DNA from: Geobacteraceae bacterium
GTDB taxonomy: Bacteria > Desulfobacterota > Desulfuromonadia > Geobacterales > DSM-12255
Direction of reading: 5' to 3'
DNA: 37,544 nucleotides
Assembly: GCA_013377075.1 (NCBI GenBank)
Contig: JACABD010000020.1
Span: 25,283 to 62,826, forward strand
Part shown: positions 16,550-31,086 of the stretch, in pieces
Layout of the letters: each line of letters opens with the position of its first letter
Numbering within the stretch: the first letter of the stretch is position 1
Notes under the pieces: generated by a model
Databases searched by the model: none
What the model was told of the DNA's origin: nothing
Seen by the model: the letters and a program-made list of their open reading frames with translations, nothing else
Translations under genes and position numbers: made by a program

Positions 16550-17869
16550 TCAGGGTTTCACCGGTTGTTTCTCTTTCGATTTGGCATCGCCCTTTGCGTC
16601 AGGCTTTACAGCCTCTTCCTTTGCTGCTTTTTGCGGTTTTATCTTCATGGCAGCAATGTAGTTCGCCGTATAGATGTAATCATCAACAGCATCAAACTTG
16701 CCATCCTTGTTCAGATCAAACTTCCCGGCAAGATAAGTATTAAAATCTGCCTCTGACAGAGCTTTACCCTTTGTCATAACCGGACTTACAGATGGCACCA
16801 CTGTCAGCGGAAACTCCATGACAGCCTTGCCGTCAATGACCGTCAACACCGCCTCTACAGCACCCTTTTTGGGAAGCGCCTCGATTGTCCAGGTGATTAC
16901 ATCCTCACCTTCACCGCTCAGATTTAATGTTTTTGCCCCATTCAGCATAAACTTTGGCGACTCATTCTCGGTCTGTCTCATCACCAGAGTAATCTTCACA
17001 GGTGTCTCGCCGTCAGCTATGACGATCGGCGGATTTTGCGCAAAACCGGGCATGGAGACCTCGGCAAAAAGAGCAATCAGGCTCTTTGGCGTTTTCTCCT
17101 CCTTGAACTCCCTGAAAAGCTGCAGCGTACTCTTGTAGGCCACAGATTTCTTTTCCGGAGCCTTTTCCCGCTCAGACTTCTGTTCAGCAGCCATCTGCTG
17201 CCCTGCTGAATCGCCAAGCGGCAGGGTCATATCCTTACGCAGATCGGTAACAAGCGGCTGGCTGTCAGACTTTCGCTCCGTAGAAGGGGTAGACGGAGAT
17301 GATGTCAGATCCTGGGGCAAGGTAAGTGAGCCTATTGATGGTGTCGAGCCGTATGGATTTGTCTGTGGGTTCACAGTCGGATTCACAGTCGGATTCGAAG
17401 ATGGATTTGTCGTCTGATTATTCGTGTCGGTATTACTGGTATTGCCTGAGATTGTTGCAGCTGGTGTTTCAAGAGGTACATTGGCAGCAGTAACGGTCGC
17501 AAGCTTTTTCATTGTGATATAAGGATCAGGAGGATTATCACCCTTCACGTCAAAAGTAATGGTAGCAAGATCACCGCTCTTGATCGGAGAGAGCGTGGCA
17601 GCCACAATCTTCACAGACGATGCGCTATACTTCGCATTCGGGAAGAACATTGTCGAGGCAAGTGAAGATCCTGCTGCTACCCGCGGGTTTGAAAGGGCTG
17701 ACGTATCATACTGAATCACAATCTCTACCCCGCCGATATCAACAAAATCGAATCCCTTGAGATAGTAGACTCCACTGCCACCGGAAACAACCTGAACAGA
17801 AGCGCAATAGGCATTGATAGCAATCTGCAAGATGAAGATCATTAATGCTGCGATGAATACTCTTTTCAT
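16550..17869 (-). CDS. Secreted cohesin-like/dockerin-type protein
   Basis: This 439-residue protein has a Sec signal peptide (1-23, MKRVFIAALMIF...). A cohesin-like beta-sandwich follows at about 24-140 (VVSGGSGVYYLKGFDFVDI, VEIVIQYDTSAL, LATITFDVKG). Next come an Asn/Thr/Pro-rich linker with short NPTVNP-type repeats at about 155-190, a second beta-rich region at about 255-370, and a single Ca-binding dockerin-type loop near 388-399 (DLNKDGKFDAVDD). The tail is Lys/Glu/Ala-rich. I took the ATG at 17869, preceded by AGAGG, rather than a start 66 bp upstream. It is the last gene of the long secretion operon, 26 bp after ctpA. It may bind the cohesin-bearing secretin upstream; this is inference. 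Confidence 0.7.
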   Translation of the reverse strand: MKRVFIAALMIFILQIAINAYCASVQVVSGGSGVYYLKGFDFVDIGGVEIVIQYDTSALSNPRVAAGSSLASTMFFPNAKYSASSVKIVAATLSPIKSGDLATITFDVKGDNPPDPYITMKKLATVTAANVPLETPAATISGNTSNTDTNNQTTNPSSNPTVNPTVNPQTNPYGSTPSIGSLTLPQDLTSSPSTPSTERKSDSQPLVTDLRKDMTLPLGDSAGQQMAAEQKSEREKAPEKKSVAYKSTLQLFREFKEEKTPKSLIALFAEVSMPGFAQNPPIVIADGETPVKITLVMRQTENESPKFMLNGAKTLNLSGEGEDVITWTIEALPKKGAVEAVLTVIDGKAVMEFPLTVVPSVSPVMTKGKALSEADFNTYLAGKFDLNKDGKFDAVDDYIYTANYIAAMKIKPQKAAKEEAVKPDAKGDAKSKEKQPVKP

Positions 17870-17895: not shown

Positions 17896-19221
17896 CTATG
17901 AAGATGTAACCATTACCTTCTTGAGAATCTCCCACCCTTTGAGAAGATCAAGGGCCCTGAGGAGCTGGTAGTCGTTCTTGACCTGCTCATCGGTCTTGTA
18001 AAGCGGCAGTACTTCGGCCTTTTCGGCCGGCTGATCCTTCTTGTCGTTCTCGAAGTGATTTTCCAGATCCTTCTCACGCAGATGCATCGACTCTTTCTTC
18101 TCGGTTGAAGCCAGCTCGACTCGTTCTACGACGATATCAGGTGTAATCCCCTTGGCCTGGATGGAGCGGCCACTTGGTGTGTAGTAGCGGGCGGTTGTCA
18201 GCCTCAGACCGGAGTTGTCGGAGAGCGGAATTATTGTCTGCACCGACCCCTTGCCGAAGCTCTGTACGCCCATGACAACGGCACGTTTGTGATCCTGAAG
18301 TGCACCGGCAACGATCTCGGACGCACTGGCACTGCCACTGTTTATAAGAACTACTATGGGATAGTTGGCCTGCTTTGTCCCTTTTTTGGAAGAGAACTTC
18401 ATCTGCGCGTCCTTTTCTCTCCCTTCTGTATAAACAATCAGTTTCCCTTCCTCAAGGAAATGCTCGGAGACCTTGACAGCCTGATCAAGAAGACCGCCCG
18501 GATCATTTCTCAGGTCAAGAACCAGACCATTAAGCTTACCCTTGGAGGTTTCATTGAGGCTTGCCAGAGCCTTTTGAAGATCATCATTGGTCTTCTCCTG
18601 GAACTGGGCAACCCTTACATAACCGTAGCCGTCATCAAGCATCTTGAACTTGACACTCTTCACCTGGATAATATCTCTTGTGAGCGGGAAATCCTTTGGC
18701 TTCTCGAACCCCTCTCTCATGATCGTCAGGGTGACTTTTGTCCCCTTGACCCCTCTCATCCGCTTGACCGCGTCCATGATGCTCAGGTCCTTGGTGAACT
18801 TGTCGTCAATCTTGAGAATCTGATCGTTGGACTTGAGACCGGCGCGGTATGCCGGAGTATCTTCAATCGGCGAGATGACCGTCAGTATCCCGTCCTTGAT
18901 GGATATTTCGATACCGAGACCGCCAAACTCACCCTTGGTATCTGATTTAAGCTCCTTGTAGGTTTCAGGAGGCATGAACGAGCTGTGGGGATCGAGCGCT
19001 GTCAGCATTCCGTTGATAGCACCGTAGATGAGCTTCTTGGTATCAACCTCTTCTACATAGCTCTTCTTGACGATGGCAAGCACATCGGTAAAAAGCTCTA
19101 TTGATTCATAATCGTTTCCTGCGGCTGTGGCACTGCGATAGGCAGTAGCAGAGGCAAGGGATACAAAAACCGCCACCAGCGAGATCAATACATACCTACG
19201 TACCCTGTTGTTACGAAACAT
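17896..19221 (-). CDS. ctpA: S41-family C-terminal processing peptidase (CtpA)
   Basis: This 441-residue periplasmic protease has an N-terminal signal/anchor (8-30), a PDZ domain at about 95-170 (GEFGGLGIEIS... SNDQILKIDDK), and the S41 catalytic core. LRNDPGGLL lies at 238-245, the SASASE motif at 297-302 holds the nucleophilic serine, and K324 in SFGKGS is the general base. These enzymes trim C-termini of periplasmic proteins and, with partners, regulate peptidoglycan hydrolases. The ATG at 19221 follows GGAGG closely; a GTG 18 bp upstream is possible. It follows envC by 41 bp, fitting a role in envelope remodelling. Confidence 0.92.
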   Translation of the reverse strand: MFRNNRVRRYVLISLVAVFVSLASATAYRSATAAGNDYESIELFTDVLAIVKKSYVEEVDTKKLIYGAINGMLTALDPHSSFMPPETYKELKSDTKGEFGGLGIEISIKDGILTVISPIEDTPAYRAGLKSNDQILKIDDKFTKDLSIMDAVKRMRGVKGTKVTLTIMREGFEKPKDFPLTRDIIQVKSVKFKMLDDGYGYVRVAQFQEKTNDDLQKALASLNETSKGKLNGLVLDLRNDPGGLLDQAVKVSEHFLEEGKLIVYTEGREKDAQMKFSSKKGTKQANYPIVVLINSGSASASEIVAGALQDHKRAVVMGVQSFGKGSVQTIIPLSDNSGLRLTTARYYTPSGRSIQAKGITPDIVVERVELASTEKKESMHLREKDLENHFENDKKDQPAEKAEVLPLYKTDEQVKNDYQLLRALDLLKGWEILKKVMVTSS

Positions 19222-19262
19222 TACCCCTCCGGATTGCACTAATTTGAAGTAACTTCTAAAAA

Positions 19263-20453
19263 CTATCTGAACCAGGGGCCCGGATCAACCGGTTTCCCCT
19301 GATACCTGATTTCAAAATAAAGCTTGGCTCCATCTGTCGAGTCTGAATCACCCACATGGCCAATCACCTCGTTTTTACGAACTGCAGATCCTGCCTTCTT
19401 GCTGACAGTTGAGGTGTGGGCATAGAGGGTAAAAAAGCCCCCTCCATGATCGATTATCAGCATATTGCCGTAACCCTTGAACTTCTCTGCAAAAATAACC
19501 TCTCCATCATATACAGCCTTTATGTCGGCGTTCATGGGAGCGGCAATGGTTATGCCATTATTAAAGGTAAAGGAGTTGAACTCCGGATGCTTATGCTTGC
19601 CGAATCGGGCTTTTATCTCGCCAGGGGCAGGGAGTGACAGCCTGCCGCGCTGGGAACCGAACCCCTTGTCGGCAAGTGGCGGCTGCTGATAGTCGCCGCC
19701 CGGCACCGGCCTCTTCCTGTCATCTTTGGGAGTATAGCTTTTTCTGCTCCTGGCTTCAAGCCTTTCAACCATTGCCTGAAGTCGCCGTGAATTTGCTAAA
19801 AGCTCCTTGAGAGAGCTCTGGTGCTCCTTTTTTTCCATCCTCACCTGGGAGAGCAGCGCCGACTTCTTTGATTTCTCGCTCTCGATCTCCTGCTTTTTGG
19901 CCTTTACCTTCTCGGAAAGTTTCTCCTTGCGGGCGGCCTCCTGCTCCAGAGACTCTTTCAGCCCTTTCAGCTGGGTGACCCTGTTCTGATAGTCGAGAAA
20001 AAGTTTTTTGTCATTTTCAAGGATCGACTTCATGTAACGGCGATTCTCAACGGCCTGAGGAATAGATCCCGATGAGAAAAATATCCTCACATTCCCCATC
20101 TCTCCGGCCTTATAAAGGGAGGATACACGGCGTGTTATCTCCTGCTTCTTCAATTCGATTTCGGCAAGTGTAAGCTGTATCTGCTTCTGCGTAGCAACAG
20201 TCTTGTTCTCTACGCTCATCAGCTCTTTATTCAGATGGAGGAGATTGTTTTCTTTGTCTTTGAGATTTTTTTCAATGCTGACAAGCTCGGAAGAGACCTT
20301 GGACTCAACCTTTTTAGTCTGCTTGAGAAGCTGCTGCTTCTCCTTTATCTGGCTGTTTACCCCTTTAAGATCGTCACGAACATCAGCATAAGCAGATGTT
20401 GCCAGAAAGATCAGAAAGAGTGCCTTAATCACTGTTTCACTAGACATGGTCAT
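19263..20453 (-). CDS. EnvC-like murein hydrolase activator (M23/LytM domain)
   Basis: This 396-residue protein has a signal peptide ending near ATSAYA (19-24), a long coiled coil at about 25-235, and a C-terminal LytM/M23 domain at about 280-396. The zinc ligands are degraded: the usual HxGxD is NNGITI and the usual HLHFE is LYFEIRY. AHTS keeps a histidine. EnvC in E. coli lost the same ligands and acts as an activator of amidases, not as an enzyme. It starts directly after the ftsX stop with no spacer, matching the FtsEX-EnvC partnership, in which FtsX recruits the coiled coil in the periplasm. Confidence 0.87.
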   Translation of the reverse strand: MTMSSETVIKALFLIFLATSAYADVRDDLKGVNSQIKEKQQLLKQTKKVESKVSSELVSIEKNLKDKENNLLHLNKELMSVENKTVATQKQIQLTLAEIELKKQEITRRVSSLYKAGEMGNVRIFFSSGSIPQAVENRRYMKSILENDKKLFLDYQNRVTQLKGLKESLEQEAARKEKLSEKVKAKKQEIESEKSKKSALLSQVRMEKKEHQSSLKELLANSRRLQAMVERLEARSRKSYTPKDDRKRPVPGGDYQQPPLADKGFGSQRGRLSLPAPGEIKARFGKHKHPEFNSFTFNNGITIAAPMNADIKAVYDGEVIFAEKFKGYGNMLIIDHGGGFFTLYAHTSTVSKKAGSAVRKNEVIGHVGDSDSTDGAKLYFEIRYQGKPVDPGPWFR

Positions 20454-21398
20454 CTATATGGTAATCAGTTTTTTCAAAGAGACCAGGCTGCCGATGAATC
20501 CGAGTGCAACTCCGCCAATCACCAGAGCAACCATGTATGGGAGCGGCAGAAATGTCAGGCCGGCTTCAGCAGGGTTGAAAGAGAGGAAGTTTACTGCATT
20601 GGCAAGCAGGGCGAAGTAGCCGCCGGTGAGAAGCGCAAGTGCGGTGATGCCGCCGACAGCCCCCTGCAACATACCTTCAATCAGAAACGGCGCTTTTATG
20701 AAGAACGGTGTCGCACCGACCAGGGCAAGGATCTCGATCTCATCCTGACGGGCAAGAACAGTCAGTTTAATTGTATTGGAGACGATAAAGAGCACTGCCA
20801 TGACCAGAAAAACCGCTATCATCAGTCCAAGAACCCTTATGACCTGGAAAAAGGTAAGGAACTTTTTCACCCACTCCTCACCGTACTGCACCTCGCCAAC
20901 ACCCTGAAGATGCTTGAGCCTGCTAACATACACATTGACACTGTCAGTGGCGCGGAACTCCTTTTTCAGGGAGATTTCAAGGGATGACGGCAGGATATCT
21001 GCCGAGACACCATCAAGAAGCGACTCCTGACCTTTAAGCCTTGAGCGGAACTTTTTCAGAGCATCTTCCTTTGATACATACTGGACAGATTCGGTGCCCG
21101 GAAGGGCCGCAATACGGCTTTTCAGCGAGGCAAGCTCCGGCGATGACGGCTCCCTGTCAAAATATACAGTTACGGCAACCTTTCTGCTCCACTGCTCGAT
21201 TGTCCCTTCCATGTTGAGATAAATCAGCATGAACAGTGAGATGATGAGCAGTGCCAGTGTTATGGTGCAGACTGTAATAAGAGTTACGAGCCGGCTTGAG
21301 GCGAGATTTGCCAGAGCCTTTCTGGTGAAATATCCAAGCCTGCCGCCTGCCCCTTTTGCCGAAGCCTGTGGCCTGACATTCTGTCTGTTAAGGGACAT
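20454..21398 (-). CDS. ftsX: FtsX, cell-division ABC transporter-like permease
   Basis: This 314-residue membrane protein has four predicted transmembrane segments, at about 37-60, 185-210, 235-258 and 283-308. A large periplasmic loop lies between the first two (about 62-180; VAVTVYFDREPSSPEL, SVQYVSKEDALKKF). This is the standard FtsX topology. With FtsE it transmits ATP hydrolysis to periplasmic murein hydrolase activators such as EnvC, encoded next. Its start overlaps the ftsE end by 11 bp. The cytoplasmic N-tail of about 35 residues is basic. Confidence 0.93.
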   Translation of the reverse strand: MSLNRQNVRPQASAKGAGGRLGYFTRKALANLASSRLVTLITVCTITLALLIISLFMLIYLNMEGTIEQWSRKVAVTVYFDREPSSPELASLKSRIAALPGTESVQYVSKEDALKKFRSRLKGQESLLDGVSADILPSSLEISLKKEFRATDSVNVYVSRLKHLQGVGEVQYGEEWVKKFLTFFQVIRVLGLMIAVFLVMAVLFIVSNTIKLTVLARQDEIEILALVGATPFFIKAPFLIEGMLQGAVGGITALALLTGGYFALLANAVNFLSFNPAEAGLTFLPLPYMVALVIGGVALGFIGSLVSLKKLITI

Positions 21399-22056
21399 TT
21401 ACGGCCTCCTGCATGACCCCTTTTTCAAGACTGACCACCCTGCCCTGAAGTGAATGGAGCACCCTTTTGTCATGGGAGGCAATTAGCACTGTTGTGCCGC
21501 GTATGTTGGCTTCTTTAAATATCTTCAGTATCTGATCCTTGTTTGACGCGTCAAGATTGCCGGTAGGTTCGTCAGCGAGAAGAATCTTCGGATCATTCAC
21601 CAAAGCCCTTGCAAGGGCAACGCGCTGCTGTTCGCCGCCGGAGAGGCGAAGGGGGGCTGCATCCTTTTTGTGCTCGATGCCCAGGCTTTTGAGCACATGG
21701 TAAACCTTCTTGCCGATGTCTCTGCTCTCCCAGCCGAGAACCTCAAGGGTCATGGCGACATTGTCAAATACCGACCTTGTATTGAGTAGCTTGAAGTCCT
21801 GGAAAACCACGCCGATGTTGCGGCGAAGATAAGGGATCTGCTTGCGCGGCAGGCGGGTGAGATTCTGTCCGTCAACGACAACGTGGCCGCGAACCGGCTC
21901 CACTGACCCATAGACGAGCTTGAGGAGCGTAGATTTGCCGGCACCCGATGGCCCTGTCAGAAAAACAAAATCCCCTTTGGGGATAATGAGGTTGATGCTT
22001 GAAAGTGCGGGAGTATCCTTTTGATACTGCACCGTTGCGTTATGAAACTCTATCAT
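21388..22056 (-). CDS. ftsE: FtsE, cell-division ATPase
   Basis: This 222-residue ABC ATPase has Walker A GPSGAGKS (36-43), signature [15 protein letters not shown] and Walker [13 protein letters not shown], all intact. The length is normal for FtsE. The gene overlaps ftsX by 11 bp. It follows the pseudopilin gene by 8 bp, so the division module is embedded in the secretion operon, which is unusual. Confidence 0.94.
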
Positions 22057-22064
22057 TTAAATAG

Positions 22065-22469
22065 TTACCATTCGTTATAGGATTTTTTATCAGAGCCGAT
22101 AAGGTTTGATCCGCTATGGACATCGTAAACAGAGCCTTCAACCTTGCTGCCATCTGTTGAAGCAGCGGGCGCAACGGTGATCCAGCTATCCTTTGCTCCG
22201 GTAAACGGGTCTTTAGGGATTTCCCGCAGATAGTGCTTGTCAACCAGCTCGGTCAGACTCTCCGGAAATTTCCCCTGGTCCGCATAAAACTGATCGATTG
22301 TAGATCTGAAGGAATAGAGATTCTCTTTAAGCACTGACTCTTTGGCCTTGATTAGCCCCCATCGGTAATTTGGCGCCGCAATTGAGGCAAGAATGCCGAT
22401 TACAGACATGACAATCATCAGCTCTATGAGGGTAAAACCTGATCTTCCCGGTTTCTTGAAAAATCGCAT
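22065..22469 (-). CDS. gspG: Type II secretion major-type pseudopilin (GspG/OxpG-like)
   Basis: This 134-residue protein has a class III prepilin signal. Cleavage is expected between G11 and F12 (GRSGFTLIELMIVMSVIGIL), with E16 as the essential Glu5 of the mature protein. A hydrophobic helix and a GspG-type head (LREIPKDPF near 80-88) follow. The Ca-site region is short. It would form the periplasmic pseudopilus. In Geobacter sulfurreducens a related pseudopilin, OxpG, is needed for secretion linked to insoluble Fe/Mn oxide reduction (Mehta et al., from memory). It follows the other pseudopilin gene by 3 bp. Confidence 0.88.
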   Translation of the reverse strand: MRFFKKPGRSGFTLIELMIVMSVIGILASIAAPNYRWGLIKAKESVLKENLYSFRSTIDQFYADQGKFPESLTELVDKHYLREIPKDPFTGAKDSWITVAPAASTDGSKVEGSVYDVHSGSNLIGSDKKSYNEW

Positions 22470-22472
22470 CGA

Positions 22473-22982
22473 TTACCAGTCCTTGTACTTTGTACCGTCA
22501 ATTGCCGTCTCTTCGCTCATGGAACAGACATCGTAAATATCGCCAGTGCCCGGCTTGTCCGAACACTCTTTGTCACTATATGATCTTGCGCCCCAACTCT
22601 TGTCGCAGGTAACCTGTGTGTCCCTGAAAAACGGGTCACAGGGAACTCTTCGCAGAAACTTTTTCTTTTCAGTATAAACACCGCCGAAAGTATCACCCTC
22701 CAGCAGTTTTTCGAAACTTTCCGGATAGCCGCTTTTATTCATGGTGGTCATCATTCTTACACCATTGAGACCTTCGGTGGTCGCCTTGTCATAGGTCTTC
22801 TTGTAGTCATCAATCGCATTTCTGATGACCCTGAGATTCCTTCTCAGTTCAACCTCCCTGGTTCTTTTGGCCATGAGCTGTGCAGAAGGAAGAATCAGCG
22901 CAGCCAGAATTGAGAGAATCGAAAGGGTCATGACCAGCTCAACCAGACTGAGACCGGCTTTACAGGCAAAGGCTCTGCTCAA
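22473..22982 (-). CDS. Pseudopilin with prepilin-type cleavage motif
   Basis: This 169-residue protein starts with a prepilin signal, cleaved between G10 and L11 (CKAGLSLVELVMTLSILSI), with E15 as Glu5. The head carries five cysteines after residue 110 (RVPCDPFF, QVTCDKS, KECSDK, DVCSMS among them), so disulfides are likely. The DPF motif and the dipeptide-rich end resemble GspG-type heads, so this may be a second GspG-like rather than a GspH/I subunit. Its start overlaps the secretin stop by four bases. Confidence 0.8.
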   Translation of the reverse strand: MSRAFACKAGLSLVELVMTLSILSILAALILPSAQLMAKRTREVELRRNLRVIRNAIDDYKKTYDKATTEGLNGVRMMTTMNKSGYPESFEKLLEGDTFGGVYTEKKKFLRRVPCDPFFRDTQVTCDKSWGARSYSDKECSDKPGTGDIYDVCSMSEETAIDGTKYKDW

Positions 22983-25501
22983 GGCTGTTTGACCTCAATA
23001 ACAGCATTGTACGGTGTTGACTCGACCGGTTTGTACCCCTGCCCTGTCAGTTTTATGCCGGTAAAACCGATACTGGCAAGGCCTGGCGCCCTGGCTTTGA
23101 AAGTTGCCGAAAAAAGCTTGCCTGCGCCTGAAATCCCGCCATTTTCAGCCTCTCTGAAGAACCTTATCTCAAGGGCTCCGACAGTTTTATCGATCTTGCC
23201 GGTAAAGTTTGAAGGTTTGCCGTCTTTTTTGAACATATCCCCTTCAGTCAACAGAACAGCCTCGATAAAAGCTGGATCGTAAATTATTTTGAATGGGGCT
23301 GAGAAAAGATTGTTCGCCTCGGAAATCATGATGTCGGCACTGAACTGCTCACCAACCTTGACAACAGTCGGAGCTGAAATACTCAAGGAGACTCTCCGCA
23401 CCTGGGCCGGCGGGAGATTTGCTGCCAGATCCGGAGCCTTGGCTGCTGCAGGATCCGCAACAGCTTGTGGATCGGTAACCTGAACAGCAGATTGCGGAGC
23501 TACCGGCGTTACCACTACCGGCTGTGCCGCAGCCTGAGCAGGTTGCTGAACGTTCTGCGTCGGTACTGCTTGTGGCAAAGAAGCAGAAGGCTGCGCCTTG
23601 GGCTGAGGTTGAGCAGGCGGGGCAGACACGCTCTTTGCTGCCGGAGCGTTGAACTCCGGCTCCTGTGCAAATGAGGCGTATTGCTTGGCAACAGACGGAT
23701 CATCTTCGACTCCTGACCAGAACGAGGCGACTTCAGGATCGGATACAGTTATGCCGCGAACAATCCTTGGAGTTATTGCCAGTATCAGCTCTGTCTTATC
23801 CTGGGAATTATCCTTGTTGGAAAGCAGGTTGCCGATGATCGGAATATCGCCGAGGAGAAATATCTTACTGGTGTTATTCCCTTTCGTATCCTGGATAAGC
23901 CCGCCGATTACGCTTGTCTCGCCGTCTTTCAGTGACAGCACCGTATCCATGTTGCGTGTACCGATGGTTGCAACAGTCGTGTTGCCATCGGTACCGACTT
24001 TTTCCTTTGATAAAATGGAACTGACCTCAAGTCCTAGCTTGATATTAACATCATTGTTGAGCTGGATGGTCGGCTCAGCATTAATCTTGACACCGACATC
24101 AACATACTGGACGTTGACATTGTAATTGCCGACACCATTACTTGAAGTCGTTGTGATCGGCACCCTTGTACCCACATTGAACTTGGCCTTCTCCCTGTTT
24201 TTTACACGGATTTTAGGATTGGATAGTGTTTCGGCATTACCCAGGGTCTTGCCGAAGTTGAAGGTGGCATTTGGGACAGTAATGTAATTGCGGTAATCGC
24301 CCCAGCGGAAGAGGTTAAGCAATTGGGTATTAGTGGCAGCAGTTGTAGTGGTTGTAGTAGTAGAAGAGGTTGTGGAAGTTGTTGCAGCAGTAAGAGTATC
24401 GCTAAAAGCCCCGTTTGGCCCGTACAGACTTGCACCAATTGCGTATTTGCTCAGGGCCAGCCCGAAACTCTCGGCATTTTTCTTGGCAAGCTCGATGACC
24501 TCAACCTCAAGCACCACCTCGGCATCAGGGACATCATTGGCATCAAGTATGCGCCGTGCAACCTCGATAACATCAGCTGTATCCCTTAAAACAAGGGTGT
24601 TCATCTCTTCATTGACATAGATCTTTTTGACCTGAAGCATGGTTCTGATCAGGTTAACCGCCTTTTTTGCATCCAGTTTGTTGAGAAAAAAGGTCTGAAC
24701 GTAAAGATCTTCATACTGTTTTGTCTTGTCAGGAGTTTTTGGATAAACAATCACCGTGCTTTCGTTAAGCACTTTCTTGCTCAGTTTATGCATGCCGCAA
24801 ATGATGTCGAGAGATTGCTGAAAGGTTGCGTTTTCGAGGTAGACGGTAACAGCTGCATCCTTGACGCCTTCGTCAAAAACAAAATTGATCCCGGAAAGCT
24901 GCGAAATGATGTTGAAGACATCCTTTATCTTGGCATCCTTGAATTTCAGCGTGATTGGCTTCGTTGATTTAAGGTTCAGCTCGAACCCTTCTGCCCTTAC
25001 CTTCTTTGTCTTTAACAGGCGTTCTACAGATTCAGCAGCCTCCCTGTTGTTGGGGTTGAAGTTAAGAGCTTTCTGGAATGAGCGTACAGCCTCCTTTGTC
25101 TTGTTCTCCTTCTCAAAGGCGACACCTTCATTATAGAGCTGCAAGGAGCTTCTATGCTTTCGCAGTGTGTCAAGCTGCTGTTTTGCCCGCCCCTGCGCCG
25201 GATCAAGTACCATAGCCTTGGTGTACTCGTTAAACGCCTCATCAAGACGCTTTTCTGCAAACAAATCATCTCCGGCTTTAAGATGTACCCTGGCAGCATT
25301 TTCACTTGCCTTGAGAAAGGCAAGCCTGTACTCGCTCTGCTCCGGATTATTCGAAACAGCCTCGGCATACTTGAGCACGGCCTCGTCAAACTTGCCGCTC
25401 CGCTCGTACTGCTGGCCCCTGTCAAAGGCCGAGCGTCCGACAGTACAGGCGGTCAGGGCTGCAAAAGCAGATAAAAGTGCTATTTTCATTACGATTTTCA
25501 T
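22979..25501 (-). CDS. gspD: Lipoprotein secretin with N-terminal TPRs and C-terminal cohesin domain
   Basis: This 840-residue outer-membrane channel has a lipoprotein signal with lipobox LTAC (C19), TPR-like repeats at about 24-165, a secretin N0/STN-like domain (183-253) and an N1-like domain (265-325). A Thr/Ser-rich loop (371-392) precedes the secretin barrel region (420-585; VPITTTSS, LKDGETSVIGGLIQD, FLLGDIPIIGNLLS, ELILAITPRIV). Then come a Pro/Gln/Ala-rich linker (612-700) and a cohesin domain (703-838; SISAPTVVKVGEQFSADIMI, FKIIYDPAF, GKLFSATFKA). The cohesin fusion is absent from classic GspD/PilQ. I used the ATG at 25501 with AGGAG upstream; a TTG lies 21 bp further up. It follows PilP-like and overlaps the next gene. 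Confidence 0.9.
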   Translation of the reverse strand: MKIVMKIALLSAFAALTACTVGRSAFDRGQQYERSGKFDEAVLKYAEAVSNNPEQSEYRLAFLKASENAARVHLKAGDDLFAEKRLDEAFNEYTKAMVLDPAQGRAKQQLDTLRKHRSSLQLYNEGVAFEKENKTKEAVRSFQKALNFNPNNREAAESVERLLKTKKVRAEGFELNLKSTKPITLKFKDAKIKDVFNIISQLSGINFVFDEGVKDAAVTVYLENATFQQSLDIICGMHKLSKKVLNESTVIVYPKTPDKTKQYEDLYVQTFFLNKLDAKKAVNLIRTMLQVKKIYVNEEMNTLVLRDTADVIEVARRILDANDVPDAEVVLEVEVIELAKKNAESFGLALSKYAIGASLYGPNGAFSDTLTAATTSTTSSTTTTTTTAATNTQLLNLFRWGDYRNYITVPNATFNFGKTLGNAETLSNPKIRVKNREKAKFNVGTRVPITTTSSNGVGNYNVNVQYVDVGVKINAEPTIQLNNDVNIKLGLEVSSILSKEKVGTDGNTTVATIGTRNMDTVLSLKDGETSVIGGLIQDTKGNNTSKIFLLGDIPIIGNLLSNKDNSQDKTELILAITPRIVRGITVSDPEVASFWSGVEDDPSVAKQYASFAQEPEFNAPAAKSVSAPPAQPQPKAQPSASLPQAVPTQNVQQPAQAAAQPVVVTPVAPQSAVQVTDPQAVADPAAAKAPDLAANLPPAQVRRVSLSISAPTVVKVGEQFSADIMISEANNLFSAPFKIIYDPAFIEAVLLTEGDMFKKDGKPSNFTGKIDKTVGALEIRFFREAENGGISGAGKLFSATFKARAPGLASIGFTGIKLTGQGYKPVESTPYNAVIEVKQP

Positions 25502-25527
25502 CGCCGGTTCTCCTATGGACAATCAGG

Positions 25528-26142
25528 TCATTTTCTGGGGGCAGCCAGCGGTCTGTTTTCAACAAGAGGTATGACTATTTCGCCACCATCATTGATGCTT
25601 GATATTGTGATCGCTTCATCAGTAACTAAGGTTACATCGTATTTCCCGGAGATTTTATCTCCTTTTTTCACAAGGAAAATCTCTCTGCCGTTAGAGAGGA
25701 AAATAGTTTTCCGGCTATCCTTTTTCAAAAAACCCAGAAATGTGAAGGTAGCCATGTCGCGCTGAAGCGGTGTCTGCTCGACAACGGCCGGTGCAGTCGG
25801 CAGCTGAACAGGAGCAGGTGGCGGTGGCTTTTTTTCAGGTGGCGGCGGAGGTGGTGGCAGCGGAATCGACACTTTTTTCAGAGCAGAACCCGATTCAAAC
25901 AGGGGCTGAAAGATATTTCGACCGCCACCAGGAGCTGTTCCGGGATTCTTCTCCAACAGATCAAGTCTCACCCTGACCTCATCGGAAACAGCCTGCCCCT
26001 TTCTTGTGGGCTGGACAGTCATACCAGGCCTGAAGGTAAGTTTGTCAACCCGTTCCTGTTTCGGCATGCGCATAAAACTGTAGATGATCGAACATACTAA
26101 AAGTGCTGCCAGTGCGGCAAGTATGGCCTTTTGCCTGTTCAT
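25528..26142 (-). CDS. PilP/GspC-like inner-membrane assembly protein
   Basis: This 204-residue protein has one N-terminal membrane segment (5-24). A linker contains a poly-proline tract (about 94-112), and a C-terminal PilP/GspC homology-region domain follows (TFTFLGFLKKDSRKTIFLS, REIFLVKKGDKI). Such proteins link the inner-membrane platform to the secretin's N0 domain. It precedes the secretin gene by 26 bp and overlaps the PilO-like gene by four bases, consistent with direct partnership. Confidence 0.8.
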   Translation of the reverse strand: MNRQKAILAALAALLVCSIIYSFMRMPKQERVDKLTFRPGMTVQPTRKGQAVSDEVRVRLDLLEKNPGTAPGGGRNIFQPLFESGSALKKVSIPLPPPPPPPEKKPPPPAPVQLPTAPAVVEQTPLQRDMATFTFLGFLKKDSRKTIFLSNGREIFLVKKGDKISGKYDVTLVTDEAITISSINDGGEIVIPLVENRPLAAPRK

Positions 26143-26699
26143 TTAGCCTCCATTGCAAACCAGGAGGTTATTGAAAGCTTTAGCTCAACCGTATCAGGAA
26201 CTACACCTGAGGCAGATGACATACCGATCGAGTCAATTACCAGGATGTTACTCTTTCCTGAGCCGAGATCGTAAATAAATCTTTTGAGCTGAGGGTATTT
26301 CCCGCTGACCTTCAGGGTAAGGGCATAGTTGACAAGGTTCTCTTCCTTTTCATTTGTCGGCTTATAGGAAATAGCACTCAGGTCAAGATTGTTTCTTGAC
26401 GCCATTTCGTACAGTTCGCCAATAAACCTGGCAAAGTGAACCTTCCCATAGATCTTTTCATGAAATTTAGCAAGATCCAGCTGGCCGTTTCGGTACAGAG
26501 TGTCCCTGTCAAGGAGCGCAGCACCGCGCCCCTCCTGTTCCCGCAGCTTCAACCAATCTGACTGGAGTTTATCCACTTTAGGTTTCTGGTAGAAATTGAT
26601 GAAAAGCTGCAATGTCAGCGCACTTACAAACAGTATGGCAATCGCCAGGGATGTCTTTTTACGAAGAGTCAGTATCTGTTTTACAATTGAAAGGTTCAT
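26139..26699 (-). CDS. PilO/GspM-like assembly platform protein
   Basis: This 186-residue protein has one membrane segment (about 16-35), a coiled-coil region and a ferredoxin-like periplasmic domain (NLDLSAISYKP, VNYALTLKVSGKYPQLKRFI). These features match PilO. In type IV pilus and type II systems PilO pairs with PilN on the periplasmic side. Both ends overlap neighbours by four bases (ATGA), so expression is tightly coupled. Confidence 0.78.
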   Translation of the reverse strand: MNLSIVKQILTLRKKTSLAIAILFVSALTLQLFINFYQKPKVDKLQSDWLKLREQEGRGAALLDRDTLYRNGQLDLAKFHEKIYGKVHFARFIGELYEMASRNNLDLSAISYKPTNEKEENLVNYALTLKVSGKYPQLKRFIYDLGSGKSNILVIDSIGMSSASGVVPDTVELKLSITSWFAMEAK

Positions 26700-27226
26700 G
26701 ATGCTGACACCTTGCAGACGACTGTGAAGTTAAGCCCCTTCTGGGTTCCCTCTTTGACCGTAGTCTGGTCAGTCAGGTAAACTTCTTTGAAGACTTTTGA
26801 ACCTTCAAGGTTTTCGATGAATCTGCGAACAGCGGCAAAGTTTCTGGCGCTTGCAGAAAGTTTCAGGGTTGCTCCCTTGTCTGACGGCTCAAGCGCCCGC
26901 AGTGAAACCCCTTCAGGAATGAGTCTCTCCAGGTTTGACAGTAGCAAAAGCCAGTCATAAGACCTTTTGTAAAGTATCGAATTAACAGTTTTGACGCTGG
27001 CCTGAAAAGCAGAGTACTGACTGTCACTGACCTTACTCTTGGCTGTGCCACGGTTTAAGCGGTCACTGTACTGCGCCAGTTTTTCCAGCTGTGCAGCATT
27101 ATCGACAATCATGTAGATCGAGAAGAAGAGCCAGATCGAGAGGAGTAACCCTGCAGCAAGGAAACCGATGTTTACCTTTCTGAAGTCTACATAAACCCTT
27201 GTTGCAAGGTTAATGCTGAAATTCAT
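26696..27226 (-). CDS. PilN/GspL-C-terminal-like assembly platform protein
   Basis: This 176-residue protein has a short cytoplasmic start (INLATRVYVDFRKVN), a membrane segment at about 20-42 and a periplasmic domain with the PilN pattern (LLLLSNLERLIPEGVSLRAL, TLKLSASARNFAAVRRFIENL). The INLA motif at 5-8 resembles the PilN N-terminus that binds PilM, which is encoded just upstream with a four-base overlap. Confidence 0.8.
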   Translation of the reverse strand: MNFSINLATRVYVDFRKVNIGFLAAGLLLSIWLFFSIYMIVDNAAQLEKLAQYSDRLNRGTAKSKVSDSQYSAFQASVKTVNSILYKRSYDWLLLLSNLERLIPEGVSLRALEPSDKGATLKLSASARNFAAVRRFIENLEGSKVFKEVYLTDQTTVKEGTQKGLNFTVVCKVSAS

Positions 27227-28149
27227 CGAAGACTCCTTGAAGCTGCGCCAAGTGAAGAGAGTATCTCGGGAAGTTCAAGGCGATCTATCCTCTGTTTCGA
27301 AGTTGAGATGAGGGCATCCGTATCGGCGAGGAAAGGCTCCATACCTGTCGCTTCGAAAAGTACACTCCTGAAAAGCCCGCGTTCCGAAGGAGATACAGAG
27401 TAAAAGAACTTCTGCGGCTTCCAGCCCCCCCTTGAATCGGAATAGACCAGAAGGGAGCTGTTAACCTCCCGGTAGAGCCTCACAGGATCGGAGAGAGAGG
27501 TGCCGATATATTTGCTCCGGTGAAAATCAAGAATACCGTCCTGGAATACCATGACTGTCAAGAGGCCTCGATGACAGATCAGAAAAGCCAGATTGTCATT
27601 GACCTCCAACCGGCTGGAAAAAAGCCGGTAAAGATTCAAAGATGCGAAATCGATTTGTGCCGGTTCCAGTGATATTGAGAGGAGCAGCTCCTCATACTCG
27701 CTTATTACGCTTTTCGAAGCAAGCGCAACAAGGAGGAAAGATTTCCCTTCTGCATCCACTTTTAACAGGTGATAATCAAGATGCAGCTCGCTCAGCTCAA
27801 CAGGAAAACTCTTTTTAAGCTTCCACTTGATCTGATCTATCCCTTCCGCCTTGCTCTTAATGGGGGAGTCCATCTCAAGCACCATGACCCTTCCGGAGAG
27901 ATCAGGCAGAGAGATTGAAACTCTCTTTATATCGGTTGAAAGCTTGTTCCACCCTTCAGCAATCTGCCTTGACAGAAGAGCAGGGTCAAAGATATTCCCC
28001 TCCTTGATGGAGGTTTTCAATATCTCCTCTGAACCGGTAGTAACCTCGAACCGCTCTATCACCGGAGAGTCGGCGCGGCCTGACGCAAGCGTCCAGACAA
28101 AGCCGTGCTGATGTATTTCCAGTCCAAGTGAATTACTCTGAAATAACAT
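27223..28149 (-). CDS. PilM/GspL-like cytoplasmic actin-fold protein
   Basis: This 308-residue protein resembles PilM: LGLEIHQHGFVWTLA at the N-terminus, VSISLPDLSGRVMVLEMDSP at about 85-104, IKWKLKKSFPVELSELHLDYHLL near 112-134, and the later LAFLICHRGLLTVMVFQDG. The actin-like nucleotide site looks degenerate compared with canonical PilM (the phosphate-binding DxG motif is weak). It would bridge the GspE ATPase (encoded 2 bp upstream) and the PilN-like protein. Confidence 0.75.
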   Translation of the reverse strand: MLFQSNSLGLEIHQHGFVWTLASGRADSPVIERFEVTTGSEEILKTSIKEGNIFDPALLSRQIAEGWNKLSTDIKRVSISLPDLSGRVMVLEMDSPIKSKAEGIDQIKWKLKKSFPVELSELHLDYHLLKVDAEGKSFLLVALASKSVISEYEELLLSISLEPAQIDFASLNLYRLFSSRLEVNDNLAFLICHRGLLTVMVFQDGILDFHRSKYIGTSLSDPVRLYREVNSSLLVYSDSRGGWKPQKFFYSVSPSERGLFRSVLFEATGMEPFLADTDALISTSKQRIDRLELPEILSSLGAASRSLR

Positions 28150-28151
28150 TT

Positions 28152-29873
28152 CTACTCCACAAAAGTGACACGATTGATCTCTTTCACCGTGGTCTCACCG
28201 GCAAAAACCTTTTCAACGGCAGATTCCCGCAAAAACATTGTACCTGCCTCTCTGGCAGCCTTTTTCAGTACAGCGGCGGGCGCCTTGGAAACAATCAGCT
28301 CGCGAAGCTCGTCATTCAGGTCAAGCAGCTCGACAATAGCTGATCTGCCGCGATAGCCGGTATTGTTGCACTCATCGCACCCTTTTGCCTCATAAAAAGT
28401 GATGTCTCTGCACAATTCAGGATTAATGGCTGATTCAATAAGGTACTCATCGGTATGTTTGACCGCCTGTCTGCACTTCGGGCAGACCTTACGCACCAGT
28501 CGCTGCGCCATGACACAGTTGAGACAGGAGACAAAGTTGTAAGGATCTATCCCCATATGGATGAAACGGCCGATAACGTCAAAAACGTTGTTGGCATGAA
28601 CTGTCGTAAAGACAAGATGCCCTGTCAAGGCAGATTGAACGGCTATCTGCGCAGTTTCAGGATCGCGGATCTCACCGACCATGATCTTGTCAGGGTCGTG
28701 CCTCAAGATGGAGCGAAGTCCCCTCGCAAAGGTGAGTCCCTTCTTCTCATTTACCGGAATCTGCACAATCCCTTTGAGGAGGTATTCAACAGGATCCTCT
28801 ATCGTAATAATTTTCTCTTCGCCGGTGTGGATTTCGGTAAGGGCGGCATAGAGGGACGTCGTTTTACCGGAACCTGTCGGCCCGGTGACAAGAACCATTC
28901 CGTAAGGCTCACGAACCATTTTCCTGAACCGTTTTATCTCGTGCTGGGACATGCCGAGAACATTCAGGGTAAGTCCCTTCATATCGCTGGCAATGCTCTC
29001 CTTGTCGAGAATACGAATGACCGCATCCTCGCCGAATGCGCTCGGCATAATGGAAACACGGAAGTCTATGGCCTTGTTGTTGATGCGCAACTTGAAGCGG
29101 CCATCCTGCGGAATCCTCCGCTCGGAAATGTCAAGCTCGCTCATTACCTTGAGGCGGGAGATTATCGGCCCCTGAAAATGCATGTCAATGGTATCTGTCG
29201 CCTTATAGAGAACGCCATCTATCCTGAACTTGATGACTACCCCTTCCATGGCGCATTCGATATGGATATCGCTTGCCCTTCTGGTAAGCGCATCCATAAT
29301 TGTCGAATTGAGGAGCTTGATGATAGGGCTTGTGTCAGAGGAAATTGCCTCGACGGAGAGAACTTCTTCCCCCTTCTCCGTCTCGGTGACAAGCTGGAGC
29401 ATGAAGTCTTCAGAGACCTCTTTAAGCACCCTGCTTGTACCGTCTCCTTTTTTGAGAAGCAGATGAATTGCCGAGGGAGAGGCAATTTTAAGAATCAACG
29501 GCCTGTCGAGAATGAGTTCGAGATCGTCGAGTTTGACAACGTCCGTCGGATCCGGAATGGCAATTACAAGAGAGTTGCCGACAAGTTCGAGAGGAACAAA
29601 GGTATAACGATAGGTTATGTCAGCCGGGAAAAGCGCAAGCAGATGTTCGTCGAGCTTATGGGCTGCCAGATCAACAAAATCCAGACCAAACTGCTCGGCA
29701 AGGGCCTGATAGAGGGTGTCTTCAGAGACAAGCCCCTCCTGGATGCAGAGATCGCCAAAACGAAGAGTTGAACTCTTTAGTTTTTCAACAACATAATCAG
29801 ACTGATCCTGCGTCAGATCACCGTGACCAACAAGTATTTCACCTATCATTTTTCTTGCAAAGGAGATGCTCAT
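28152..29873 (-). CDS. gspE: Secretion/pilus assembly ATPase (GspE/PilB)
   Basis: This 573-residue hexameric ATPase has an MshEN/GspE N-domain (about 1-140) and a catalytic domain. Walker A is GPTGSGKT (331-338), the Asp box ITIEDPVEY lies at 356-364, Walker B is RHDPDKIMVGEIRD (391-404), and the His box is TGHLVFTTVHANN (417-429). A zinc-binding insert uses C464-x2-C467 and C499-x2-C502. It powers pseudopilus assembly from the cytoplasm. It follows gspF by 4 bp. Confidence 0.94.
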   Translation of the reverse strand: MSISFARKMIGEILVGHGDLTQDQSDYVVEKLKSSTLRFGDLCIQEGLVSEDTLYQALAEQFGLDFVDLAAHKLDEHLLALFPADITYRYTFVPLELVGNSLVIAIPDPTDVVKLDDLELILDRPLILKIASPSAIHLLLKKGDGTSRVLKEVSEDFMLQLVTETEKGEEVLSVEAISSDTSPIIKLLNSTIMDALTRRASDIHIECAMEGVVIKFRIDGVLYKATDTIDMHFQGPIISRLKVMSELDISERRIPQDGRFKLRINNKAIDFRVSIMPSAFGEDAVIRILDKESIASDMKGLTLNVLGMSQHEIKRFRKMVREPYGMVLVTGPTGSGKTTSLYAALTEIHTGEEKIITIEDPVEYLLKGIVQIPVNEKKGLTFARGLRSILRHDPDKIMVGEIRDPETAQIAVQSALTGHLVFTTVHANNVFDVIGRFIHMGIDPYNFVSCLNCVMAQRLVRKVCPKCRQAVKHTDEYLIESAINPELCRDITFYEAKGCDECNNTGYRGRSAIVELLDLNDELRELIVSKAPAAVLKKAAREAGTMFLRESAVEKVFAGETTVKEINRVTFVE

Positions 29874-29877
29874 TTAG

Positions 29878-31086
29878 TTATCCGACCGTCCCGGCGATTT
29901 TGAATACTGGTAAATACATGGTAACAATAATTGTACCGATGACAACCCCCATGATAACCATTATTGCCGGCTCTATGGCAGTGCTCAGCAAGTGAAGCTT
30001 CTGGTCAAGCTCCTCCTCGAAATAGTCGGAGATCCCTTCCAGCATCTCTTCAAGAGAACCTGTTGATTCGCCAACGCTGAGCATTCGCAGTGCAAGGGTC
30101 GGCATCAGCTTTGCTCCGTCAATGGCAACGCTCAAGGAAACCCCCTCCTCAACACGCCTGATAGCCGCGGTAAGCCTCACTTCAAGGACCTTGTTGTTAA
30201 GGGTTCCGACAGACATCCTCAGCGACTCGACGATGGGAATGCCGCTTTCGATAATCGTTGCAAGAGTTCTGGTAAAGCTTACAATAGCGTATTTGGCAAA
30301 AACATCTCCGATCACCGGAATCTTTAACGTGAATTTATCAACAATCATCCTGCCCGACTCGGTATTAGCCCATCTTCTGAAAAAATAGACCCCGCAAACA
30401 ACAGCACCTATCAGCAGCGGAAAAAACTTTTTCAGGATACTGGTAAAGGCTATAAGCACAAGGGTCGGAGTTGGCAGCCTTGACCCTGCATCAGCATAGA
30501 CCTGACTGAAGGTGGGGACAACGTAGACCAGGAGCAGCGTTATGGCGACAAAAGCAACAGAGAGCAAAATCGCCGGGTAAAAGAGCGCGGTAATGACCTT
30601 TTTTCTAAAACCTTCAGTTTTTTTGAGAAAAGTAATGTAACGCTTGATTGTCTGCGGAAGATCGCCAGTACGTTCACCGGCACGGATCGACGCGATGTAG
30701 AGATGGGAAAATGCGCTCGGATGGCGCTCGAAAGCATCGGAGAGAGAACTCCCCCCCTTGATATCGTCACGAATGATCTCCAGGACCTCGGCAAGCCGCC
30801 CCTTCTCGATCCTCTCAAGAATAGTGTCAAGCGACTGAATGATCGGCAGCCCGGCCTTTATGAGGACAAGCAGCTCCTGATTGAATGTGATCAGTGATTT
30901 AATATCAATCTTCCGGCGTGAGGCCCCTTTGTTCCATAGGAACTGAAGCGGCTTTTTCGATATACTGAAAACAAAGAAACCCTGAGAAGTAAGGTTCTGT
31001 CTGAGAATATCCGAGGACGCAGCCTCAAACTCCTTCTCAATAATCCTGCCGTCAGCAGAGCCGATTTTACAGATAAATAGTGGCAT
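29878..31086 (-). CDS. gspF: Inner-membrane platform protein (GspF/PilC)
   Basis: This 402-residue protein has two GspF cytoplasmic domains (about 68-190 and 270-390) and three membrane segments (about 165-190, 215-235, 370-395). Typical motifs are FNQELLVLIKAGLPIIQSLD (68-87), IRAGERTGDLPQTI and, in the second half, SVGESTGSLEEML. It forms the central platform on which pseudopilins are assembled. It lies 60 bp after the octaheme cytochrome gene, the largest gap in the 19-gene run. Confidence 0.92.
   Translation of the reverse strand: MPLFICKIGSADGRIIEKEFEAASSDILRQNLTSQGFFVFSISKKPLQFLWNKGASRRKIDIKSLITFNQELLVLIKAGLPIIQSLDTILERIEKGRLAEVLEIIRDDIKGGSSLSDAFERHPSAFSHLYIASIRAGERTGDLPQTIKRYITFLKKTEGFRKKVITALFYPAILLSVAFVAITLLLVYVVPTFSQVYADAGSRLPTPTLVLIAFTSILKKFFPLLIGAVVCGVYFFRRWANTESGRMIVDKFTLKIPVIGDVFAKYAIVSFTRTLATIIESGIPIVESLRMSVGTLNNKVLEVRLTAAIRRVEEGVSLSVAIDGAKLMPTLALRMLSVGESTGSLEEMLEGISDYFEEELDQKLHLLSTAIEPAIMVIMGVVIGTIIVTMYLPVFKIAGTVG

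Follow-up and report, generated by a model that had tools for sequence, protein, structure and literature searches.

The window analysed here, a 37,544-nucleotide stretch of a Geobacteraceae genome (contig JACABD010000020.1), encodes a secretin of a type II secretion system (T2SS) that ends in an additional module, and this module is, by sequence profile and predicted fold, a genuine cohesin. The same fusion recurs across the order Geobacterales, and dockerins, the partners of cohesins in cellulosomes, are encoded in the same operon and elsewhere in the genome. The reading we favor, which we hold at about even confidence, is that a ring of cohesins on the secretin, probably periplasmic, recruits dockerin-tagged cargo either directly or through an adaptor in which an immunoglobulin (Ig)-like X module precedes the dockerin (X-dockerin).

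At 22979-25501 only the minus strand is open; the frame runs from an ATG at 25501 to a stop at 22979-22981 and specifies 840 residues, with a TTG at 25522 as an alternative start. Pfam places N0/STN at residues 185-255 and Secretin_N at 268-327, the latter above its cut-off and N0, at 23.4 bits, under its cut-off of 27. The Secretin, N0/STN and Secretin_N domains are common to GspD and PilQ, whereas the N-terminal tetratricopeptide-repeat (TPR) lipoprotein part and the C-terminal cohesin are additions of this protein. It reaches neither the GspD equivalog TIGR02517 (164 bits versus a cut-off of 351) nor PilQ TIGR02515 (168 versus 284), which agrees with the “atypical” label of the system to which we assign it below. 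The N terminus, with its lipoprotein signal and TPRs, resembles a fused Tgl/PilF-like pilotin, and we note this as a resemblance only. Among 50 homologues, residues 583-617 are conserved (..FWSGxEDxPS..PYxSFxEP), and conservation returns in the cohesin after the variable linker. The original prediction of a secretin with a C-terminal cohesin is thus confirmed by the open reading frame, Pfam, the predicted fold and recurrence in homologues; the Pro/Gln linker that it described is also present, starting near residue 618 rather than at 585 since the intervening segment is conserved.

The Pfam Cohesin profile (PF00963) covers residues 705-821 with an E value of 2.9e-11 (44.2 bits versus a cut-off of 24.1). 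An alignment of 39 modules (A1) served as input for an AlphaFold2 model of residues 699-840, which has a predicted local distance difference test (pLDDT) score of 95.2 and a predicted template modelling (pTM) score of 0.87. In a Foldseek search of the Protein Data Bank (PDB), every listed match to this model is a cohesin, the best being 2xdh (E 2.6e-10), a non-cellulosomal cohesin of Archaeoglobus fulgidus. VIA-align gives Z scores of 18.6 to 4uyp and 2xdh, with a root-mean-square deviation of 1.8-1.9 over 127-134 residues. All 50 VIA rows listed for the module are cohesins, and both listings show only what matched, so that families absent from them are not thereby excluded. A profile search (hmmsearch) of PDB sequences finds 3l8q as the best match (E 1.6e-8) and cohesins in 34 of 36 rows. 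The cohesin-like module proposed at about residues 703-838 therefore stands, structure prediction and fold search having returned cohesins only, among the matches listed.

The genome contains three secretins, in frames of 648, 1051 and 847 residues, and two cohesins; of the three secretins only the one described here carries a cohesin, and the second cohesin resides in the protein encoded at 16550-17869. Across the 141 genomes of the order, a Pfam cohesin is detected in 119; a homologous secretin is readable in 120, with the cohesin in 115 and without it in five (G017, G124, G127, G132 and G133), the presence of both parts in one protein having been read directly at some loci and from matching places or frames at others. 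The module keeps the same position in nearly all intact homologues examined; one homologue whose frame is broken after the barrel and before the cohesin (G018, L039), possibly by a sequencing error, was left out. The fusion is also present in Geobacter argillaceus, Geobacter sp. OR-1 and Geomesophilobacter sediminis, and among 395 genomes sampled from the phylum it was met in further families of the class as well as in a small number of more remote lineages, tblastn having confirmed a secretin stretch beside the cohesin at ten of the sampled loci. The survey of Geobacterales secretins that the earlier note had suggested thus reveals an order-wide fusion. Two candidate explanations were rejected: a chance or artefactual origin is ruled out by the same position in dozens of species together with the high-confidence fold, and a lone recent fusion by the order-wide and wider occurrence. 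Two loci (L046, L077) each contain two homologous secretins, one with the cohesin and one without, in the genus of which other members have no cohesin. We found no publication on a cohesin-bearing secretin in a search confined mostly to literature outside subscription; automatic database annotation may well list the architecture.

The nearest dockerin is encoded in the same operon. The protein at 16550-17869, which we call CohDoc, comprises a signal-peptide helix, a cohesin, a disordered linker and an Ig-like domain immediately before an EF-hand dockerin-like module. Against the Pfam dockerin profile (PF00404) it shows a single repeat at 13.6 bits, under the cut-off of 22.9; its second calcium repeat is intact and the first is degenerate in the window, and relatives at two loci (L049, L067) are complete in both. 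The dockerin-like segment postulated here is likewise real. When the PDB is searched with a profile of the X-dockerin alignment, the dockerin matches are all weak, and in VIA the complete CohDoc model was matched over its cohesin only, the X and dockerin folds lying outside that comparison. As the named ligand, CohDoc is indeed a dockerin-bearing candidate; its own cohesin had been overlooked, as had the other dockerin proteins of the genome and the order-wide fusion. The earlier interpretation is thus borne out in part, as to the true cohesin, its fusion to an atypical T2SS secretin and the existence of candidate dockerin ligands. The CohDoc gene follows the S41 protease gene directly or a few genes on in many genera and lies elsewhere in the genome in others. 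The X-dockerin part is present in 107 of the 141 genomes, sometimes without a cohesin, as on another contig (C121) of the same genome.

A second class of dockerins sits at protein C termini. A PF00404 search of the genome gave sub-threshold single repeats only, and reading these places revealed true two-repeat dockerins; two places on one contig (C50) were unlike dockerins in the frames inspected and were rejected. A query taken from a protein on contig C79 found five proteins of this genome with a two-repeat dockerin, a sixth place (C74, E 0.12) being excluded from the set. They map to C79, C32, C1 (two places) and C24 (L093-L103), and comprise secreted proteins of 177 and ~97 residues besides three large proteins, with lengths of 990, at least 1756 and ~3346 residues; the smallest consists of little beyond a signal peptide and the dockerin. 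In all five the dockerin lies at the extreme C terminus and the final residue is W or F. The closest PDB matches to their profile (alignment A3) are mostly dockerins, of which the best, 5m2o_B (E 1.9e-5), belongs to group I. Such C-terminal dockerins occur in 101 of the 141 genomes, with a maximum of 18 per genome, and the 39 dockerin ends compared all stop 0-3 residues from the C terminus. Pfam searches over the full frames of two of the five proteins (L099, L103) gave no cellulase match, and the remaining ones were read by eye. In another family of the order, three frames (G102:C471, G116:C1:117820-119823 and G114:C1:542812-545010) combine at least one cohesin with a C-terminal dockerin, as if in an extracellular scaffold network.

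The secretin gene lies in a strongly conserved order: GspF, GspE, PilM, PilN, PilO, PilP-like, secretin, two pseudopilins, ftsE, ftsX, EnvC-like M23 and S41 (Table 1). The placement of the envelope genes ftsE to S41 between the pseudopilins and CohDoc is likewise conserved, and in close relatives two multihaem cytochromes and an NHL protein precede the order. According to two published accounts (PMC3543383 and PMC10599522, citing Mehta 2006), Geobacteraceae possess two T2SSs, of which “Pul” (PulG, OxpG, TklG) is encoded beside cell-division genes and is required if the multicopper protein OmpB is to be secreted. The window has this layout, a T2SS gene set with pseudopilins adjoining ftsEX, and we take the locus to be the Geobacter “Pul/OxpG” atypical T2SS, assigned by gene layout. 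At four loci (L055, L063, L065, L067) Gly-rich lipoproteins with a C-terminal part that resembles a cohesin on visual inspection are encoded after the S41 gene, either ahead of CohDoc or instead of it, and in several genera (L042, L050, L063-L065, L067, L069 and others) a protein of ~210-240 residues with a conserved AFGGLSIYY... follows the S41 gene. Because CohDoc closes the conserved order, after ftsEX, envC-like and ctp genes, and because cohesin secretins co-occur with CohDoc-type X-dockerins, the cohesin might serve only to fix CohDoc as an accessory subunit, in assembly, in a pilotin-like capacity or as a link to peptidoglycan, and play no part in cargo choice. We consider this unlikely, given that X-dockerin genes also lie outside the operon and near OmpB-like oxidases, and that other species fuse dockerins to these oxidases.

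The OmpB-like loci bring in the cargo. In G. sulfurreducens, the multicopper oxidase OmpB is encoded in a cluster with a MofC homologue (PMC5566968). Contig C121 (L155, G000:C121:1-6612) likewise has a single cluster for a MofC-like cytochrome/periplasmic-binding protein, the cohesin-less X-dockerin protein and an OmpB-like multicopper oxidase, the last truncated where the contig stops. At six loci (L193-L198) an OmpB-like oxidase itself ends in a C-terminal dockerin, another (L207) has a terminal Pfam Dockerin_1 match barely above the cut-off, and an X-dockerin gene is found within ~5 kb of an OmpB-like oxidase at six loci (L155, L201, L202, L204, L205 and L206). The cargo class known from the literature is thus repeatedly tied to dockerins, fused or neighbour-encoded, and we regard the OmpB-like multicopper oxidase as the leading cargo candidate.

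Solved relatives of the secretin are multimers of about 12-15 subunits, and a multimeric secretin of the present kind would carry a ring of linker-tethered cohesins around the channel entrance, most likely on the periplasmic side. We posit that this ring would bind dockerins and hold cargo at the channel mouth, after which the pseudopilus would export it. Capture could be (i) direct, through the cargo's own C-terminal dockerin, or (ii) mediated by a CohDoc/X-dockerin adaptor, whose dockerin would plug into the secretin and whose cohesin or X module would face the cargo, much as a cellulosome adaptor scaffoldin works. The data are compatible with either cohesin, the secretin's or CohDoc's, taking either dockerin class. 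More tentatively, we propose that cargo of this T2SS is chosen through a portable tag: the cohesin built into the secretin would recognize a C-terminal dockerin borne by cargo or adaptor. We know of no earlier example of a modular, transferable T2SS export signal.

The C-terminal S region of secretins binds periplasmic pilotin lipoproteins (PMC6532946), and because the S region is the pilotin binding site, the cohesin most likely lies on the periplasmic side of the outer membrane; by the same analogy, placement at the cell surface is the less likely option. Were the cohesin outside, it would act as an anchor that retains secreted dockerin proteins, such as OmpB and the Ig-like giants, on the surface instead of selecting them for export. 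OmpB belongs to the surface proteins of the outer membrane (PMC5566968, citing Qian 2007), dockerins are borne by large, extracellular-looking proteins, known cohesin-dockerin pairs elsewhere function outside cells, and the 85-residue linker could span far; yet an extension that follows the pilotin-binding region should begin in the periplasm, and the secretin tail has no known export path, so that we give surface retention rather little credence.

Genomes in which the secretin carries the cohesin also tend to encode dockerins: X-dockerins occur in 103 of 115 such genomes versus 0 of 5 with a cohesin-less secretin (Fisher p 3e-5), and C-terminal dockerins in 94 of 115 versus 1 of 5 (p 0.007), in tests that ignore phylogeny, the five losses of the cohesin belonging to two genera, and in counts blurred by incomplete genomes. 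C-terminal dockerin and X-dockerin are found together in 98 of the 141 genomes, one only in 3 and 9, respectively, and neither in 31. The neglect of phylogeny is one of several points that weigh against cargo recruitment by the secretin. No C-terminal dockerin of this type is present in 21 cohesin-positive genomes and no X-dockerin in 12; the secretin cohesin thus persists where no partner was found, and the pairing of cohesin and dockerin is not strict. The terminal aromatic, W or F in 36 of the 39 dockerin ends, is partly ascertained because the survey profile was built from the five dockerins of this genome, all of which end in W or F; the background rate of such endings, inflated by homologous genes, was left out of account. 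Dockerins could instead bind the CohDoc cohesin outside the cell, and the periplasmic placement of the secretin cohesin is borrowed from other secretins. As for the cargo, we infer that the oxidases are OmpB homologues from their multicopper-oxidase domains and the MofC-like neighbour, not from the GSU1394 sequence, and four OmpB-like loci (L199, L200, L203 and L208) have neither a dockerin nor an X-dockerin neighbour. A shared fold does not show function, the identity of the module to known cohesins is ~13-22%, and some cohesin-positive genomes have no detected dockerin of this kind; the fold could then have been retained without dockerin binding, for another ligand (glycan, peptidoglycan or lipopolysaccharide) or as a spacer. 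This we regard as very improbable, since most of the same genomes contain dockerins and X-dockerins are absent from all five genomes with a cohesin-less secretin.

Both the profile family and the predicted fold of the module are shared with the cohesins of cellulosomes and of A. fulgidus, and here, too, dockerins are encoded in the same genomes. Unlike cellulosomal cohesins, the module is joined to an outer-membrane secretin and has secretion, cell-envelope and cytochrome genes as neighbours in place of a cellulase scaffold; where a cellulosome combines a multi-cohesin scaffoldin with dockerin-bearing cellulases, the two cohesins of this genome lie in separate proteins. The “Pul/OxpG” system has the T2SS-like gene set and the pseudopilins by cell-division genes in common with our locus, and OmpB as a known cargo; the accessible part of its description (PMC3543383; Mehta 2006) makes no mention of a cohesin or a dockerin. 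Syntrophic sulfate reducers and anaerobic methanotrophic (ANME) archaea, anaerobes with extracellular electron transfer, likewise have non-cellulosomal cohesin/dockerin proteins, but in the accessible part of that account (PMC10553843) these are proposed as adhesins and no secretin fusion is described.

Table 1. Features of the window around the cohesin-bearing secretin, in the direction of transcription.
Feature	Coordinates	Strand	Basis
GspF-like inner-membrane protein	29878..31086	-	Pfam T2SSF
GspE/PilB-like ATPase with MshEN domain	28152..29873	-	Pfam T2SSE
PilM-like protein	27223..28149	-	Pfam PilM_2, E 4.3e-6, 26.3 bits, just below cut-off 27
PilN-like protein	26696..27226	-	Pfam PilN
PilO/GspM-like protein	26139..26699	-	Pfam T2SSM_b
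PilP/GspC-like protein	25528..26142	-	Position, Pro-rich layout, synteny; no Pfam match
Secretin lipoprotein with C-terminal cohesin, 840 aa, “Pul/OxpG”-type atypical T2SS secretin	22979..25501	-	Open reading frame, translation, Pfam, order-wide homologues
Lipobox Cys19 of LTAC, predicted lipidated	25445..25447	-	Sequence; lipobox-like motif in most homologues
TPR region, residues 25-155	25037..25429	-	Pfam TPR_2, E 4.9e-15
N0/STN + Secretin_N, residues 185-327	24521..24949	-	Pfam
Secretin barrel, residues 420-582	23756..24244	-	Pfam PF00263, E 2.3e-39
Post-barrel segment at S-domain position, residues 583-617	23651..23755	-	Conservation, 50 homologues
Pro/Gln/Ala-rich linker, residues 618-702	23396..23650	-	Weakly conserved (50 homologues); length varies
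Cohesin module, residues 703-840	22982..23395	-	Pfam PF00963, PDB profile search, AlphaFold2, VIA
Pseudopilin	22473..22982	-	N-terminal methylation motif, weak GspG
GspG-like pseudopilin	22065..22469	-	N_methyl; partial GspG
ftsE, ftsX, M23/EnvC-like peptidase, S41/Ctp peptidase	17896..22056	-	Pfam/NCBIfam, synteny
CohDoc, predicted secreted cohesin/Ig-like X/dockerin protein, 439 aa, last gene of conserved order	16550..17869	-	
CohDoc cohesin, residues 24-133	17471..17800	-	Pfam E 1.2e-5; model versus 2xdh, Z 14.0
CohDoc Ig-like X-module-like domain, residues 245-358	16796..17137	-	AlphaFold2 model
CohDoc dockerin-like module, residues 370-410, EF-hand DLNKDGKFDAVDD	16640..16762	-	Sequence, AlphaFold2 model; Dockerin_1 sub-threshold

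A cohesin-bearing secretin, a dockerin-bearing partner in its operon and a dockerin-linked cargo class together make T2SS cargo recognition directly testable in Geobacter. How T2SSs recognize folded cargo is a long-standing question, and to our knowledge no common export signal is known; a demonstration of docking would establish a new principle of T2SS cargo choice. The Pul-type system serves the reduction of insoluble metal oxides in Geobacter, and, if our proposal is true, dockerin fusion might serve to target proteins to the cell surface in electroactive bacteria.

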